Assembly: GCA_025774865.1 (NCBI GenBank)
Contig: JALGZO010000624.1
Location: forward strand, 1-5,141
Origin: a bacterium
Lineage (GTDB): Bacteria > ARS69
Length of the DNA stretch: 5,141 nucleotides
Direction: 5' to 3'
A model generated the notes under the pieces. It was not told the origin of the DNA. It did not search any database and saw only the letters and a program-made list of their open reading frames with translations. Within the stretch, counting starts at the first letter, position 1. Each line of letters begins with the position of its first letter. The translations under genes were made by a program, and so were the position numbers. Below, one piece after another: positions 1 through 4,456 of this stretch.

Positions 1-67
1 CGTAATTGACCATCAATGGTGGTGCGCGAACCCGCGTGCACGATTCGTTCGTCAACAGTTCGTTCGG

Positions 68-73
68 AAGGAG
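68..73 (+). promoter_or_regulatory. Shine-Dalgarno site deciding the GTG start of the Ubl gene
   Basis: AAGGAG lies 8 nt before the GTG at 82. It supports this start over the longer in-frame ATG at position 16, which has no comparable purine tract upstream. Confidence 0.8.
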
Positions 74-81
74 AGGAAACT

Positions 82-300
82 GTGTCGACCCTGATCGCCC
101 CCGTGACGCTCACCGCGTTCGGCAAAGGACGCTTCGAGAGTCCTGCAGGTCCCGACATGACGGTCTCCGACGTGCTCGGCAAGCACGGCGTGCAGACGAA
201 CGGCCAGCGCGTTGCTCTCAACGGGCACAGTGCGACCCTCGATACCCCCGTGCAGGAGCACGATGAGCTCACCGTGATTCCCCGCGTGGTGGGGGGGTAA
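82..300 (+). CDS. ThiS/MoaD/ubiquitin-like beta-grasp protein with native C-terminal Gly-Gly
   Basis: This 72-residue protein looks like a small beta-grasp carrier or modifier of the ThiS/MoaD/ubiquitin-like group. Seen directly: an N-terminal strand pair (about residues 5-20), then TVSDVLGKHG (27-36) matching the family helix, the VALNGHS turn (44-50), an acidic loop QEHDELTVIP (58-67) like the family's 'D-G-D-x-V' segment, and a terminal VVGG directly before the stop. In such families the exposed Gly-Gly is adenylated by an E1/ThiF enzyme and then thiocarboxylated or conjugated. The GTG start at 82 is chosen because AAGGAG lies 8 nt upstream; the in-frame ATG at 16 would add 22 residues with no family counterpart and no good ribosome site. 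An E1-like gene lies in the same cassette. Whether the tail acts in sulfur transfer or in protein conjugation cannot be decided from this sequence. Confidence 0.85.
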   Translation: MSTLIAPVTLTAFGKGRFESPAGPDMTVSDVLGKHGVQTNGQRVALNGHSATLDTPVQEHDELTVIPRVVGG

Positions 301-313
301 CCGCTGAACGCGT

Positions 314-348
314 CGAGGGAAGGGCGGTACGACGACGCCCTTCCCTCG
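314..348. terminator. Perfect 13-bp hairpin between the Ubl gene and the next gene
   Basis: Bases 314-326 (CGAGGGAAGGGCG) are the exact reverse complement of 336-348, with a 9-nt loop. The stem starts 14 nt after the Ubl stop codon. It is followed by TTCGCGGGG, not a T tract, so it does not look like a full intrinsic terminator. I infer a partial terminator, attenuator or 3'-end stabiliser that would give more transcript of the small modifier than of the two downstream genes. The structure is seen directly; the function is inferred. Confidence 0.6.
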
Positions 349-353
349 TTCGC

Positions 354-361
354 GGGGAGGG
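354..361 (+). promoter_or_regulatory. Shine-Dalgarno site deciding a TTG start
   Basis: GGGGAGGG, with core GGAGG at 356-360, stands 6 nt before the TTG at 367. This strong site is the reason for accepting the rare TTG as the start of the 357-residue protein. Confidence 0.75.
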
Positions 362-366
362 ACATC

Positions 367-1440
367 TTGCCTGGCCTCGAGTCATCGATCCAGCGAGAGA
401 TTCTCCGTCTCGAGCTCGGGAAACGAGTCGTCTTCATCGATGATCCGAGCACCGTGCTCGTCAATCAGGGCACGGACTCGATCACCTCGCCGGTTCCGTA
501 CGTACTTCTGGAGCGCGGAGGAGACAAGTACGAAGGGCGCCGTGAGCGCCTCGACTTCGAAGGCGAGGGCGGGAACTTCGCGCTACTCGCGCGCCGGCGG
601 ACGCCGCCTGCGCTCGCGGGCAAGAAGCGGAACTGGATCGGGTACGTGACCGGGGAGTCCGGCCGGGAGCTTCCCGTCACCGTCGTCGATCCGAAGAGCC
701 ACACCATCCACGTTCTCGTGGACCTGGAGAGAAGCGAAGTCATCGAGGGCGACGTGAGTCGCGCCGCCGCCGCCGTCGTGGCGGTCCTCGTGGGGCGCCC
801 GCTGGAGCTCATCCTCGCGAAGGGCGGGCGGCCTTCGGTGGGTCGTCGGGTGCCGCATCGGCTCCGTGCGCTCCTGCAGAGGCAAGGCCGACATTCCCGA
901 CGGATGTTGGAGCGCGAGGTCGCGGTCCTTCGCCGACTGGGAGCGGGAGCGACGTCCCCGAGGTATGTGATCGGTCGCCGGCTGGCGCTCGTGGAGGCGG
1001 CGCTGGAGGGAAAGCGGACCCGCGAGGTCGAGCTCGCCGTGTGTGAGCGCGAAAGCCAACGACTGGGACAACTGCTGGAGAGCCGCGCCTGCGCGTCTCT
1101 CCAGGTGGACGCGGACCGGATCCGTGGACTCCTGAACCCCCGGCTGATCGACGAGTCGTGGGGCGTTCAGGCGTTCAACTTCTCGCTCTGGCCGGCGCCG
1201 GAGCTCGGACGCCCGGAGCTCGCGCTTTGGGCGGTGGGTCGGCGGCAGCCGCCGGCGGCGCATCTGTGCATCGGCCCGGAGGCCACGGAAGTGCTGAGGA
1301 GCCTGGAGGACACCTGCAACGTCTTCGGACTGATCGACACGGTCCTGAACTTCGTGGAGACCAACAAGTACGGCCGGGTCCGATCGACGGGCGAAGCTCG
1401 GCGCCCGGTGCGGCACCGACCTGCCAGACTCGAGCTCTAG
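367..1440 (+). CDS. Unrecognised 357-aa cassette protein, possible divergent E2-like
   Basis: I do not recognise this protein as a whole. It has no signal peptide or membrane segment, so it is probably cytoplasmic. Residues 1-150 look like an alpha/beta domain with several strands (RVVFID, PYVLLER, NFALLA, TIHVLVDL). Residues 160-250 are rich in Arg and Leu and probably helical. Residues 265-335 run from strand-like FNFSLW and ELALWAV into HLCIG (299-303, Cys301), then helices ending VFGLIDTVLNFVE. The order of strands, a His near a Cys in an 'x-L-C-I-G' setting, then helices resembles the catalytic region of prokaryotic E2-like proteins, such as PRTRC protein B, which occur beside Ubl and E1 genes. 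This is inference from a short motif plus context; the domain is short for a full E2 core. The gene lies 66 bp after the Ubl stop and 20 bp before the E1-like start, so co-transcription is likely. The last 20 residues are Arg-rich and look unstructured. Confidence 0.75.
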   Translation: MPGLESSIQREILRLELGKRVVFIDDPSTVLVNQGTDSITSPVPYVLLERGGDKYEGRRERLDFEGEGGNFALLARRRTPPALAGKKRNWIGYVTGESGRELPVTVVDPKSHTIHVLVDLERSEVIEGDVSRAAAAVVAVLVGRPLELILAKGGRPSVGRRVPHRLRALLQRQGRHSRRMLEREVAVLRRLGAGATSPRYVIGRRLALVEAALEGKRTREVELAVCERESQRLGQLLESRACASLQVDADRIRGLLNPRLIDESWGVQAFNFSLWPAPELGRPELALWAVGRRQPPAAHLCIGPEATEVLRSLEDTCNVFGLIDTVLNFVETNKYGRVRSTGEARRPVRHRPARLEL

Positions 1441-1447
1441 ACCCTCG

Positions 1448-1454
1448 AAAGGAG
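1448..1454 (+). promoter_or_regulatory. Shine-Dalgarno site deciding the GTG start of the E1-like gene
   Basis: AAAGGAG ends 6 nt before the GTG at 1461. It lies in the 20-bp gap after the previous stop codon and selects this GTG over upstream in-frame ATG and GTG codons that overlap the preceding gene. Confidence 0.8.
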
Positions 1455-1460
1455 CATCTC

Positions 1461-2117
1461 GTGGAATACCTTCGTCAGCTGGAACTGCTCGTGCCCGAGG
1501 ATCTCGAAGGACTCGATGTCGACCTCGTCGGGGCGGGGTCTCTGGGAGGCGCCGTCCTCCTCTGCCTCGGCAAGATGGGTTTCGGGATCCGGAACCGGAT
1601 CACGGTGACCGACTTCGACCGGTGCGAGGAGCACAATCTTCCCACGCAGTGGTTTCGGCCCGCCGACGTCACGATGGCTCGCCCGAAGGTGGAGGCGCTC
1701 GCGGAAATGGCGGCGTGGATCTTCGATCGGGAGATCGAGCCGGTGGAGGCGCGTTTCACCGGAACCGAGGACCGGCGGCTCGGCCCGATCGTCATCGTCG
1801 CCGTGGACTCGCTGGAGGAACGCCGGAAGATCTGGGAGCGGCTCTCGGCCCGGGACGACGTGCGCTTCCTGGTGGACGCGCGGGCCGGGGCCGAAGTCGT
1901 GGAGATTCGCGCCGTGGATCTCGAGCGGGATTCGCGCGAAGACTACGAGCGGAGCCTCGAGGGCGAGCCGTTCGAGGAGCGGTGCACGAGGCAGGTGATC
2001 TCCTACACCGTCCTCGGGGCGGCGTCGTTCGTCGGCAGCGTCATCCGCGCGTGGGTGCGCCGCGACGAGTACCCGCGATCCTTCGTGTTCGACTTCCAGA
2101 ACTTCTGGACCGCATGA
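1461..2117 (+). CDS. Small E1/ThiF-like adenylating enzyme
   Basis: This 218-residue protein is an E1/ThiF/MoeB-type Rossmann enzyme, expected to use ATP to adenylate the C-terminal glycine of a ubiquitin-like partner, most likely the Gly-Gly protein at the head of this cassette. Seen directly: the nucleotide loop DLVGAGSLGG (21-30), the ribose-binding acidic pair DFD (51-53), NLPTQ (59-63) where the family usually has N-L-x-R-Q, the conserved lysine in ARPKVEAL (73-80, Lys76), VAVDSLEERR (113-122, Asp116 and Arg121) like the Mg/ATP aspartate motif, and CTRQVISYTVLGAASF (175-190), a Cys-led helix common in ThiF relatives. There are no CxxC pairs, so the zinc site of MoeB/ThiF is absent. Cys175 is the best candidate for a catalytic cysteine, though it may be structural. 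At 218 residues it is shorter than the usual 240-250. Its stop lies 21 bp from the stop of the convergent gene. Confidence 0.88.
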   Translation: MEYLRQLELLVPEDLEGLDVDLVGAGSLGGAVLLCLGKMGFGIRNRITVTDFDRCEEHNLPTQWFRPADVTMARPKVEALAEMAAWIFDREIEPVEARFTGTEDRRLGPIVIVAVDSLEERRKIWERLSARDDVRFLVDARAGAEVVEIRAVDLERDSREDYERSLEGEPFEERCTRQVISYTVLGAASFVGSVIRAWVRRDEYPRSFVFDFQNFWTA

Positions 2118-2138: not shown

Positions 2139-4265
2139 TCAACGGGGGCGTGAAGGAGGGCGCTCGGGCGATGGCCTCCAGTCCACTTCGCCCTCCGGGC
2201 GGTCCACCCCGATCGAAAGGTTCCGCACCTCGCGATTCGGCGAGTCCGGCGGGTCGAGCCAGACGGAGTCGTTCGCGGCCTCGGCCACGTCGTACTCGTC
2301 CGCCCCGCCGAGGTCGAGGAAGAGGCCGACGGCCGACGCCTCGGCGAAGTACGTGTGTGTGGTGTCGTAATCGCCAAAACGCTGGTCGAAACGGGCGAAG
2401 CCGGGCTTGTTGCCCTCCTTCGTGCGGTAGGAGTCATTGCCCGCCGTGTCGATGAGCATCACGACGCTCCGGTTGATGGAATAGCCGAGCCCATCACCCT
2501 CCGGGATGTCGTAGACGTCGTCGCCACCCTGATTGATGAGGAGACTCACGGAGAAGTCGTGTCCGAACGCGACGGATGCGCTTCCTTTCTCTTCGATGAG
2601 GTGCCGGTCGTCTCCGCCCTCGTCGATGAGCGCGCCGATGCAGAAGTGGGCGCCCGATCCCTGCGACCACACGACGCCGCGGTAGGTATCATTCCCGGAC
2701 GCGTCGTGGAGCAGCCCGGTGCCGAACCAGTAGCCCACGCCCTGCGACCAGTTCCCCGCGAGATACGTGTCGTCTCCCTCGACGTCGAGAAGCTGGCCGA
2801 GGCCACCGGCCCAGGAATGGCCATCGCCGCCGTCACCGCGACGCCCGGCTCCCGCGCCCTGCGCCATGGATACCGAGACGCGTCCCTCCGAGTGCGAGGA
2901 GGGACGGCCCGTGACCGCGGGATCACGAACTGCTTCGTAGCGGTCGTTTCCGCTACGGTCCGCGAGGGTCCCCACGCCGCCCACCGCACCGAAGCCCTGG
3001 CCCTCGGACTCGACGCGGTAGGAATCGCCGCCCTCGGCGTCGAGAAGGAGTCCCACTCCGAGGAACGCGGCGGCCTGCGACGAGAAGCGAGACAGGTATT
3101 CGTCGGCGCCCGCGAGGTCGGCGAGGACGCCTAGCCCCATCGAGCCCATGCCCTGGGCGCACTGGGTCGCTTCGTACCTGTCGTTCCCGGCCACGTCGAC
3201 GAGGACGCCGACGGCCGCGAGACCGGCGCCCTGGGTCGGGCGTTCGTCGCCCACGTAGGCGTCGGCGCCGGCGAGATCCAGGAGGACGGCGAGGGACCGG
3301 CCGGGGGCCGGGGCGGCCACGGCGCCGGCGTAGCGGTCGTTGCCGCCGAGATCGACGATGAGAAACGAGTCGTGGCCCCTGATCTCGTCGCGACCGGTGC
3401 CGCGGAAGCGGATCCAGCCCAAGGGGGAGGACCAGTCGAAGGTGAAGGAGCCCGAGTGTAGGTCGCGCAGGGCGTGGGCGGCCCGTTCCGCCGCCGCCAC
3501 GGTTCGGAGCCCGCCGTACCAGAGGCTCGCCTCGTCGAGGGCGGCAGCCGCGTCGTCGAACTCGGGGAAGTACTCGAGGGCGTCCGTCATGCCCACGCCG
3601 AGGTCCCAGCGGCGTTGCACTGCGAGCCGGTCGGAGGGATCGACGTTGCGGAACGCCAGCTCGACCCATTCGTGCGCGTCGACGAGGTCGAGAACGAGGC
3701 GACCGAGTGGAGCCCGTGCCGGGTCCGGAACGGTGGCGGCCACGGCGTCGAGATCTTGCCGGAGATTCGGATAGTCGGCCTCGTTGCCGAACGTGATGTA
3801 CTTCGTGCGGCGGCCGGCGCGTCGGTGAAGCTCCAGGATCGCGTCCACGAGATCGACGCGCGCCGTGTCCAGGTTCGCGGAGTACGCGCGGAACGCTCCG
3901 AACTTGCGGTCGACGCCGAGCTGCTGGACGGCCCGGTAGAGGTGCCCAGATGATCCGTCGGCCAGGTCGGCCAACGCGTCGGCTGCGAGGTGGACGCGAG
4001 CGGCGGCGGCCGCCGTGCGGGTGAAGGTCACGGTGGCGAGGGGCTGGGCCAGGATCGCATCGAAGTGGCGGAGCTTGTAGGGAATGTCGGCGGGGTAGCG
4101 GGACCAGTACCCGCGAGGAGACCAGCCCAGGTCCGCCCGGTGAAGCCCTTCGTGGGTGAGGGCATCGTCCAGGGCGTCGGCGTGACCGGCCACGGGAGCG
4201 CCGATGCCGAGGAACACCGTAAAGAGAATCACTCCGAGTGGACTCATTTCCCGACGTCGTACCAT
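2139..4265 (-). CDS. Exported repeat protein with about twelve G-x-D-x-Y solenoid-type repeats
   Basis: The 708-residue product starts with a signal peptide: MVRRRE, a hydrophobic stretch from about residue 9 to 25, then AGHA with likely cleavage after Ala29. It should act in the periplasm, on the surface or outside the cell. Residues 30-295 form a domain I do not recognise, mostly helical and rich in Ala, Leu and Asp. From about 301 to 665 come some twelve degenerate repeats of 23-30 residues, built on L-L-D-x-x-G-(N/A/G/D)-D-x-Y followed by about seven residues and Q-G-x-G-x-x-G; examples are VDLGGNDRY (304-312) and LDLGGADEY near the end. The regular hydrophobic, Gly and Asp spacing suggests a beta-solenoid, perhaps with metal binding, but it is not the nine-residue RTX pattern. 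The ATG at 4265 is chosen over the upstream one at 4319 because GGGGAG stands 9 nt before it and the signal peptide follows at once. The C-terminal 40 residues are Pro/Arg-rich. Function is unknown. Confidence 0.85.
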   Translation of the reverse strand: MVRRREMSPLGVILFTVFLGIGAPVAGHADALDDALTHEGLHRADLGWSPRGYWSRYPADIPYKLRHFDAILAQPLATVTFTRTAAAAARVHLAADALADLADGSSGHLYRAVQQLGVDRKFGAFRAYSANLDTARVDLVDAILELHRRAGRRTKYITFGNEADYPNLRQDLDAVAATVPDPARAPLGRLVLDLVDAHEWVELAFRNVDPSDRLAVQRRWDLGVGMTDALEYFPEFDDAAAALDEASLWYGGLRTVAAAERAAHALRDLHSGSFTFDWSSPLGWIRFRGTGRDEIRGHDSFLIVDLGGNDRYAGAVAAPAPGRSLAVLLDLAGADAYVGDERPTQGAGLAAVGVLVDVAGNDRYEATQCAQGMGSMGLGVLADLAGADEYLSRFSSQAAAFLGVGLLLDAEGGDSYRVESEGQGFGAVGGVGTLADRSGNDRYEAVRDPAVTGRPSSHSEGRVSVSMAQGAGAGRRGDGGDGHSWAGGLGQLLDVEGDDTYLAGNWSQGVGYWFGTGLLHDASGNDTYRGVVWSQGSGAHFCIGALIDEGGDDRHLIEEKGSASVAFGHDFSVSLLINQGGDDVYDIPEGDGLGYSINRSVVMLIDTAGNDSYRTKEGNKPGFARFDQRFGDYDTTHTYFAEASAVGLFLDLGGADEYDVAEAANDSVWLDPPDSPNREVRNLSIGVDRPEGEVDWRPSPERPPSRPR
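2271..3365 (-). repeat. Tandem protein repeats, about twelve copies, of the L-x-D-x-x-G-x-D-x-Y type
   Basis: Read on the minus strand, the segment encodes successive units opened by motifs such as LLDLAGADAY, LVDVAGNDRY, LADLAGADEY, LLDAEGGDSY, LLDVEGDDTY, LLHDASGNDTY, LINQGGDDVY and LIDTAGNDSY. Many units continue with Q-G-x-G or S-Q-G and a small-residue tail. The repeats are conserved as protein, with diverged bases, which suggests old duplication under selection, not recent DNA slippage. Unit 6 carries an extra stretch of roughly 20-30 residues (about 447-488), and unit 9 has His in place of the Tyr. Confidence 0.8.
2881..2906. repeat. Perfect 9-bp inverted repeat inside the unit 6 insertion
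   Basis: CGTCCCTCC at 2881-2889 is the exact reverse complement of 2898-2906, with an 8-nt spacer. It falls inside the extra residues of repeat unit 6 (near residues 454-462 of the exported protein). It may be the relic of a small palindromic insertion, or chance in GC-rich coding DNA. Confidence 0.45.
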
Positions 4266-4456
4266 CGATTCTCTCTCCCCACGGATCCGATCTACGGAGG
4301 CTATCCACCGCACGCGCAAAGCGCAACGGAACCTCGAGACGGCGGGTCCGAACCGAATGCCGGCTCGTCCACCTCGTGGCGCCAGGTCGAAGGTGCGGTC
4401 GCGAGGGAACGGAAGGTGTAGTAACGTGTTTGCCGGGCCGAAAATGGGAGTCGCGA
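4266..4456. promoter_or_regulatory. Divergent intergenic spacer between two exported-protein genes
   Basis: This 191-bp spacer must hold the control signals for the minus-strand repeat protein and the plus-strand DUF3450 gene. I find no convincing -35/-10 pair on either strand; TAGTAA at 4419-4424 is the only -10-like hexamer on the plus strand, and no good -35 partner lies 17 bp upstream. No AT-rich Fur-type box is visible, although iron control is common for TonB-linked operons. The plus-strand gene has GGGAG at 4446-4450, 6 nt before its ATG. Confidence 0.4.

Follow-up and report, generated by a model that had tools for sequence, protein, structure and literature searches.

Organization of the locus

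The stretch of DNA analyzed here (the window) is the entire 5141-bp contig C628 (JALGZO010000624.1) of a bacterial genome of 4.7 Mb in 785 contigs (G000), in which three consecutive genes on the plus strand encode a ubiquitin-like protein (Ubl), a middle protein that is considered below as a candidate E2-like protein, and a small E1-like enzyme. The genes are separated by gaps of 66 and 20 bp, as anticipated by a first-pass annotation of the window that had described three open reading frames in one tight operon. The Ubl gene (82–300, +) begins with GTG and specifies 72 residues that end in ...IPRVVGG directly before a TAA stop codon. The product matches the Pfam ThiS model above the curated cut-off (E 3.5e-07), which together with the VVGG end bears out its earlier description as a Gly-Gly-ending beta-grasp protein. 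The middle gene (367–1440, +) has a TTG start and encodes a 357-residue protein without a match in Pfam, NCBIfam or PADLOC. The third gene (1461–2117, +; GTG start) encodes a minimal E1-like adenylating enzyme of 218 residues that matches Pfam ThiF above the cut-off (E 1.1e-12), in accord with the small ThiF/E1-like enzyme noticed at first.

Five genomes contain all or part of the cassette. Of the four further genomes available for this family, two possess it (G004 and G002), both from other genera. The Ubl, middle protein and E1 genes occur in identical order in G004, and the E1 gene together with the end of the middle protein gene is seen in G002. The E1 proteins of these genera are 74 and 65% identical to that in the window, the middle proteins are 43 and 35% identical, and the order is kept. 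Thus, the association of the three reading frames is more than chance, as the E1 and the middle protein are conserved in the same order in two other genera. A genome-wide scan added three genomes of Acidobacteriota (L042–L044) with E1 proteins that are 55–60% identical. In L043 and L042 the E1 gene is directly preceded by that of the middle protein, and the genome of L043 (G387) carries the Ubl gene and the start of the middle gene on one contig and the middle and E1 genes on another. Many contigs of the group stop just left of the E1 gene, and consequently the Ubl gene was initially visible only in G000 and G004. The three genes stay together in full in G004 and partially in G002, L042 and L043, with L044 as an exception that is discussed below. 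Searches of viral contigs, phages and plasmids retrieved no relatives of the middle protein, the E1 or the neighboring protein X described below in those collections.

More distant E1 relatives were gathered with a profile of three close E1 sequences, which found them in 7 of 386 sampled genomes, and with a pattern scan of 84,980 species that produced 31 further loci. The closest E1 proteins outside the group belong to operons, here termed sister operons, that encode a Ubl, an E2-like protein, a JAB-type protease and an E1. The genes usually are arranged as Ubl, E2-like, JAB, E1. In nearly all of the loci the E1 is accompanied by JAB and E2-like genes, as well as by a Ubl gene wherever one is visible. 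JAB adjoins the E1 in 30 of the 31 loci from the scan, with the metalloprotease motif HSH...S..D intact in all, although the 30 are not independent because a small number of draft genomes contributed many of the Myxococcales loci. By comparison, the six E1 proteins without an accompanying JAB form a single clade in a maximum-likelihood E1 tree (support 98/96). The sister operons were found in Myxococcota, Ignavibacteriota, Deltaproteobacteria, patescibacteria and others. Drafts of uncultured Myxococcales (L052–L075) carry several near-alike copies of the canonical Ubl/E2/JAB/E1 operon per genome, such as the six loci of bin-2060.

The E1 of the cassette comprises a ThiF fold only, with no second adenylation domain and no rhodanese or JAB fusion. 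It shares R5, D51, D53, N59, Q63, K76 and D116 with the MoeB-like enzyme of the same genome. Among solved structures its profile best matches the ubiquitin-type E1 proteins UBA6, UBA7, UBA1 and UBA3, with ThiF and MoeB slightly behind. Cys-175 and Thr-176 are invariant in an alignment of eight E1 sequences. Cys-175 (codon at 1983–1985, +) lies in the motif ERCTRQ and is the putative thioester cysteine, and the CT motif occurs in every E1 listed for the tree, save those of sister locus L051 and the two outgroups.

Possible relationship of the middle protein to E2 enzymes

In layout, the middle protein has a region of approximately residues 1–160 with no recognizable fold, long helices at about 162–215, and a core at about 223–335 that resembles E2 enzymes. 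The four middle proteins of the JAB-less clade (the derived proteins) were compared as a profile with the canonical E2-like family of the sister operons. The alignment produced by hhalign spans 104 columns including the cysteine, with an E value of 0.0017 and a score of 28.8, compared with 21.0 for the best of 200 column shuffles and 9.8 for the reversed control. The canonical proteins carry the motif HPH...C-[LW]-G-N, which is reminiscent of the E2 enzyme motif HPN...Cys. All six of the top solved matches to their profile are UBE2L6 chains in which HPH...C falls on HPN...Cys, albeit at E values of only 0.045 and worse. Across all 17 aligned sequences, derived and canonical, the sole identical residues are Cys-301 and Gly-303. 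The former (codon at 1267–1269, +; motif LCIG) is the putative E2 catalytic cysteine.

An AlphaFold2 model built with three sequences was useless, with a predicted local distance difference test (pLDDT) score of 39, whereas the C-terminal half became usable with the 17-sequence alignment. The core is predicted to comprise a helix (223–239), strands (242–289), the loop bearing the cysteine, and two further helices (304–315 and 319–333). A helix, four strands, the cysteine and two helices would reproduce the order of the ubiquitin-conjugating (UBC) domain. Since the profile alignment, the equivalent operon position, the predicted order of secondary structure and the invariant cysteine coincide, the comparisons support the middle protein as a divergent E2-like protein. 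The putative E2-like assignment made in the first-pass annotation is thus supported by these four lines, although no significant fold match was obtained. As a separate observation, the E2-like protein of sister locus L051 (4159–5100; Uhrbacteria) has HPLIRNGIPFLPG and possesses neither an active-site cysteine nor HPH...Cys, the E1 of this locus is without the CT motif, and the JAB is kept. Judged from these sequences, the locus apparently is an inactive version of the sister system.

Absence of JAB and a divergent neighboring gene

No JAB is encoded in the window, as first noticed, nor on contig C490 which extends the locus leftward. Bases 1–114 of the window (+) overlap exactly with C490, being identical to the reverse complement of its start (minus strand). 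The Pfam Prok-JAB model lacks the sensitivity needed for JABs of this kind and, thus, the absence of JAB throughout the G004 genome by this model is no proof. A hidden Markov model specific to the family was built from the JABs of the sister operons and applied to the regions flanking all six JAB-less loci, and it identified no JAB in any of them. JAB thus is missing on both sides of the cassette, and its absence near the E1 is a property of the whole clade.

The tails of the Ubl proteins also differ. All three that are seen in the clade terminate exactly at Gly-Gly, with G004 and G387 both ending in VPRVQGG, so that maturation needs no protease, as had been surmised for the window. In contrast, most sister Ubls have one to four residues beyond this point (GGN, GGS, GGSK, GGAR, GGAHHA, GGM) that would need to be trimmed, which is a task for a JAB protease. 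JAB-type trimming of a precursor is described for BilC acting on BilA (PMC11354881) and for archaeal Rpn11 acting on a ubiquitin precursor (PMC6043591).

Inspection of the sequence to the left of position 1, which had been recommended with the initial description, revealed no JAB, sulfurtransferase or biosynthetic gene on C490, but instead a gene here denoted X (C490:353–1735, locus L100 in G000). The gene is divergent from the Ubl gene, its start lies 319 bp from that of the Ubl, and it encodes 460 residues. It had escaped attention as it is outside the window, which is the whole of C628. The arrangement of X and Ubl is repeated in G004 through another 114-bp overlap between contigs. Moreover, X, the Ubl gene and the beginning of the gene for the E2-like protein reside on a single contig in G387, which confirms the gene order without reliance on an overlap. 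In L044, X and the E1 gene are divergent neighbors. Among 80 genomes chosen for a targeted comparison, X was present in four of the six with a JAB-less E1 and absent from the remaining 74, of which 15 carry the sister system (Fisher p 9.5e-6). The two genomes of the clade in which X was not seen are drafts whose contigs stop within the E2-like gene or at its end.

Searches with X of Pfam, NCBIfam, PADLOC and PDB gave no match, and PHROGs gave noise only. Conserved features of X include a C-terminus reading LVLRLRV and the internal motif DYGVIRR...ENT...EG...GT.G. That X is a hidden JAB was rejected as it has no JAMM motif and its hhalign comparison with the JAB alignment was at noise (E 0.19). 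An E2 identity was rejected likewise (E 0.53). As X is the sole gene that tracks the JAB-less version, it would be the best candidate for a dedicated target, a target-selecting adaptor or an effector of the system.

Proposed conjugation and alternative interpretations

The first-pass annotation had left open whether the genes specify a reduced conjugation system or a dedicated sulfur-carrier pathway. The comparisons lend support to the former and make the latter less likely: the locus probably, though with real room for doubt, is a reduced bacterial cassette for Ubl conjugation that operates without a protease, a reading drawn from sequence comparison. In such a system the E1 would adenylate the C-terminal Gly-Gly of the Ubl and probably hold the Ubl on Cys-175, after which the tag would be transferred from the E1 to Cys-301 of the E2-like protein. 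The latter would then attach the Ubl to a target. With no JAB at the locus, the mark might be irreversible or might be removed by an unlinked enzyme; this genome does contain another JAB, beside its MoeB on C173, as well as a second Ubl system on C234. A more specific version of this proposal, which is tentative and less likely than not, is a protease-free module of four genes in which a minimal E1 and an E2-like enzyme without the usual histidine would conjugate a Ubl with a bare Gly-Gly end in an irreversible manner, with X serving as the target, an E3-like adaptor or an effector.

Several observations weigh against conjugation. The HPH that precedes the cysteine in 25 of 26 canonical loci is found in none of the four derived proteins. 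The remote homology between the derived proteins and E2 enzymes is weak, and the AlphaFold2 model from the 17-sequence alignment has a mean pLDDT of only 58.9 with most of the core at 66–84, which denotes modest confidence. A Foldseek search with this model yielded no significant match. Weak Foldseek rows (E 0.2 or worse) for the Knl1 RWD, VPS37A UEV and Ctf19–Mcm21 RWD domains, which we take to be relatives of the E2 fold, were not used as evidence. No E2 was present among the chains re-aligned by VIA-align, whose rows are matches of long helices to residues 154–222, and this outcome was not counted as evidence against an E2 fold. In the E1, Thr-62 replaces the arginine of the MoeB-type NLxRQ motif, a position occupied by asparagine in the sister E1 proteins. 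The sister loci G346 and G076 have Ubls that end in Gly-Gly and yet keep JAB, and therefore a bare Gly-Gly alone does not predict the loss of JAB. Finally, L044 has the E1 and X genes with the Ubl and E2-like genes missing.

The loss of HPH in the derived clade may reflect altered chemistry or a role as an adaptor. An inactive or regulatory variant of the E2 fold that does not conjugate, with the E1 passing the Ubl straight to a target that perhaps is X, is unlikely although it is the foremost of the alternatives. SAMP-type systems are proposed to use direct transfer from E1-like enzymes without an E2, and locus L051, devoid of HPH...Cys and of the E1 CT motif, shows that inactive versions arise. 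However, the survival of Cys-301-x-Gly-303 in all four derived proteins, which have diverged to 28–44% identity, suggests that the cysteine has kept a role.

It is somewhat less probable still that the genes form a dedicated sulfur-carrier pathway in which adenylation of the Ubl by the E1 would lead to a thiocarboxylate, with the middle protein as an acceptor or a partner in sulfur transfer. The Ubl is similar to ThiS and MoaD, ends in a bare Gly-Gly and is unaccompanied by JAB, as in classical ThiS and MoaD, and the E1 is small and without a Cys domain. On the other hand, genes for a sulfurtransferase, rhodanese or cysteine desulfurase and other biosynthetic or cofactor genes are absent from either side of the cassette in all of the genomes. 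The flanking genes vary from genome to genome and, as read from their sequences, include those for a repeat-rich secreted-type protein, an M13-type peptidase, an EamA-type transporter and a DUF362-type protein. Furthermore, the middle protein groups with E2-like proteins, and the ordinary set of the genome (JAB, a ThiS-like protein and a MoeB/ThiF–rhodanese protein) is located elsewhere, on contig C173. The possibility that the locus is the ordinary ThiS–ThiF or MoaD–MoeB pair of the genome, which would have counted against the original description, was rejected: the E1 scores 39.7 bits against a cut-off of 159 with ThiF and 22.9 against 376.55 with MoeB, and no genes of either pathway flank it. 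A decaying and functionless remnant of a canonical Ubl/E2/JAB/E1 operon, to which the lost JAB, the partly lost E2 motif and the L044 E1 without neighboring Ubl and E2 genes might point, is very improbable, as decay would not leave four intact genes in several genera: G000 and G004 have the full set of three intact genes, G387 has an intact X with the Ubl gene and E2-like start and the E2–E1 pair on two contigs, and the E1 is 57–75% identical across genera with its adenylation residues and Cys-175 kept.

Compared with known systems, the cassette has the beta-grasp Ubl with Gly-Gly and the E1-like adenylation domain with a conserved cysteine that characterize conjugation operons, but lacks both the histidine (HPH/HPN) before the E2 cysteine and a JAB/JAMM protease in the operon. 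The sister operons, which are unnamed, are the most alike in having a homologous E1 (30–41% identity), a homologous E2-like core, the same type of Ubl and usually the Ubl–E2–E1 order. They differ in the JAB gene between E2 and E1, HPH before the cysteine, usually residues past Gly-Gly, and no X. According to Iyer, Burroughs and Aravind (2006; PMC1779556), E1 proteins in E1/E2 clusters typically are fused to JAB and otherwise always have JAB in an adjacent gene, with the exception of a subset of type 6e that has an unrelated N-terminal domain. Types 6a–6e as presented there similarly cluster genes for E1-like, E2-like and Ubl proteins, and the 6d E2-like protein also is without the usual histidine. 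However, apart from that subset, JAB is fused or adjacent in those types, whereas the E1 here is unfused and JAB is absent. Some E2-like proteins of the sister operons have a Cys-rich tail. A paper from 2011 by the group that defined these types reportedly concerns RING domains in bacterial ubiquitin-like operons and may cover the sister operons with such tails.

BilABCD, an ISG15-like antiphage system, also has Ubl, E1 and E2 genes in one operon. In that system the Ubl has two domains, the long E1 is two-lobed and includes a Cys domain, the E2 bears a CEHH motif, and a JAB is present (PMC11354881). In comparison, the cassette has a single Ubl domain, an E1 of 218 residues, no CEHH and no JAB. 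Membership was rejected given the 72-residue Ubl, the short E1, the lack of JAB and a PADLOC score for BilD of only 23 bits. The Cap2–Cap3 module of CBASS was rejected as there is no E2–E1 fusion and no CD-NTase was recognized in the window or on C490. PRTRC was rejected because the PRTRC_ThiF score was 37.9 bits against a curated cut-off of 144.75 bits. The cassette resembles ThiS–ThiF and MoaD–MoeB in its ThiS-like Ubl ending in Gly-Gly, its adenylating enzyme with a ThiF fold and its lack of JAB, but differs in the E2-like protein within the operon and in having no thiamine, molybdopterin or rhodanese genes.

Neither the JAB-less clade nor X was found to be described in the literature searched, which covers few subscription journals. 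A clade that has dispensed with JAB while possessing a ready Gly-Gly tag would separate the two possible tasks of the protease, precursor trimming and tag removal, and raises the question of whether conjugation can work without reversal. The candidate E1, E2 and Ubl set is very small (218, 357 and 72 residues, respectively), which would make it convenient to reconstitute. Moreover, X (about 460 residues, of no family) provides a single defined candidate for a substrate or adaptor, which is hard to name in most bacterial Ubl systems.

Additional features were noted at the locus and in the genome. Assemblies break near the same spot, beside or inside the Ubl and E2-like genes, in the window (1–114), in G004 (C221:1–114) and in G387 (C99 end and C123 start). 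Two of these assemblies have contig overlaps of exactly 114 bp that begin about 81 bp before the Ubl gene. The recurrent breaks may reflect strain variation or an effect of assembly. Downstream of the cassette, the window encodes a 726-residue protein (2139–4319, −) with many repeats of the GGDDxY/GNDRY type, an N-terminal hydrophobic segment and no Pfam match, which probably is secreted and unrelated to the cassette. Contig C234 of the same genome (about 470–6315; L011) bears a second, different Ubl-type cluster that encodes a ThiF-fold E1 of 441 residues, a JAB-like protein of 348 residues, an AAA+ ATPase, an apparent E2-like protein with HPN...C, and a small protein ending in TLTIQPIIEAG. 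Lastly, the E2-like reading frame is in frame with that of the Ubl in G000, G004 and G387, with the linker open after the Ubl stop codon (window 298–366; L006:178–252; L109:3244 onward). The shared frame probably is coincidental (about 1 in 9), but read-through at the Ubl stop codon would generate a Ubl–E2 fusion.

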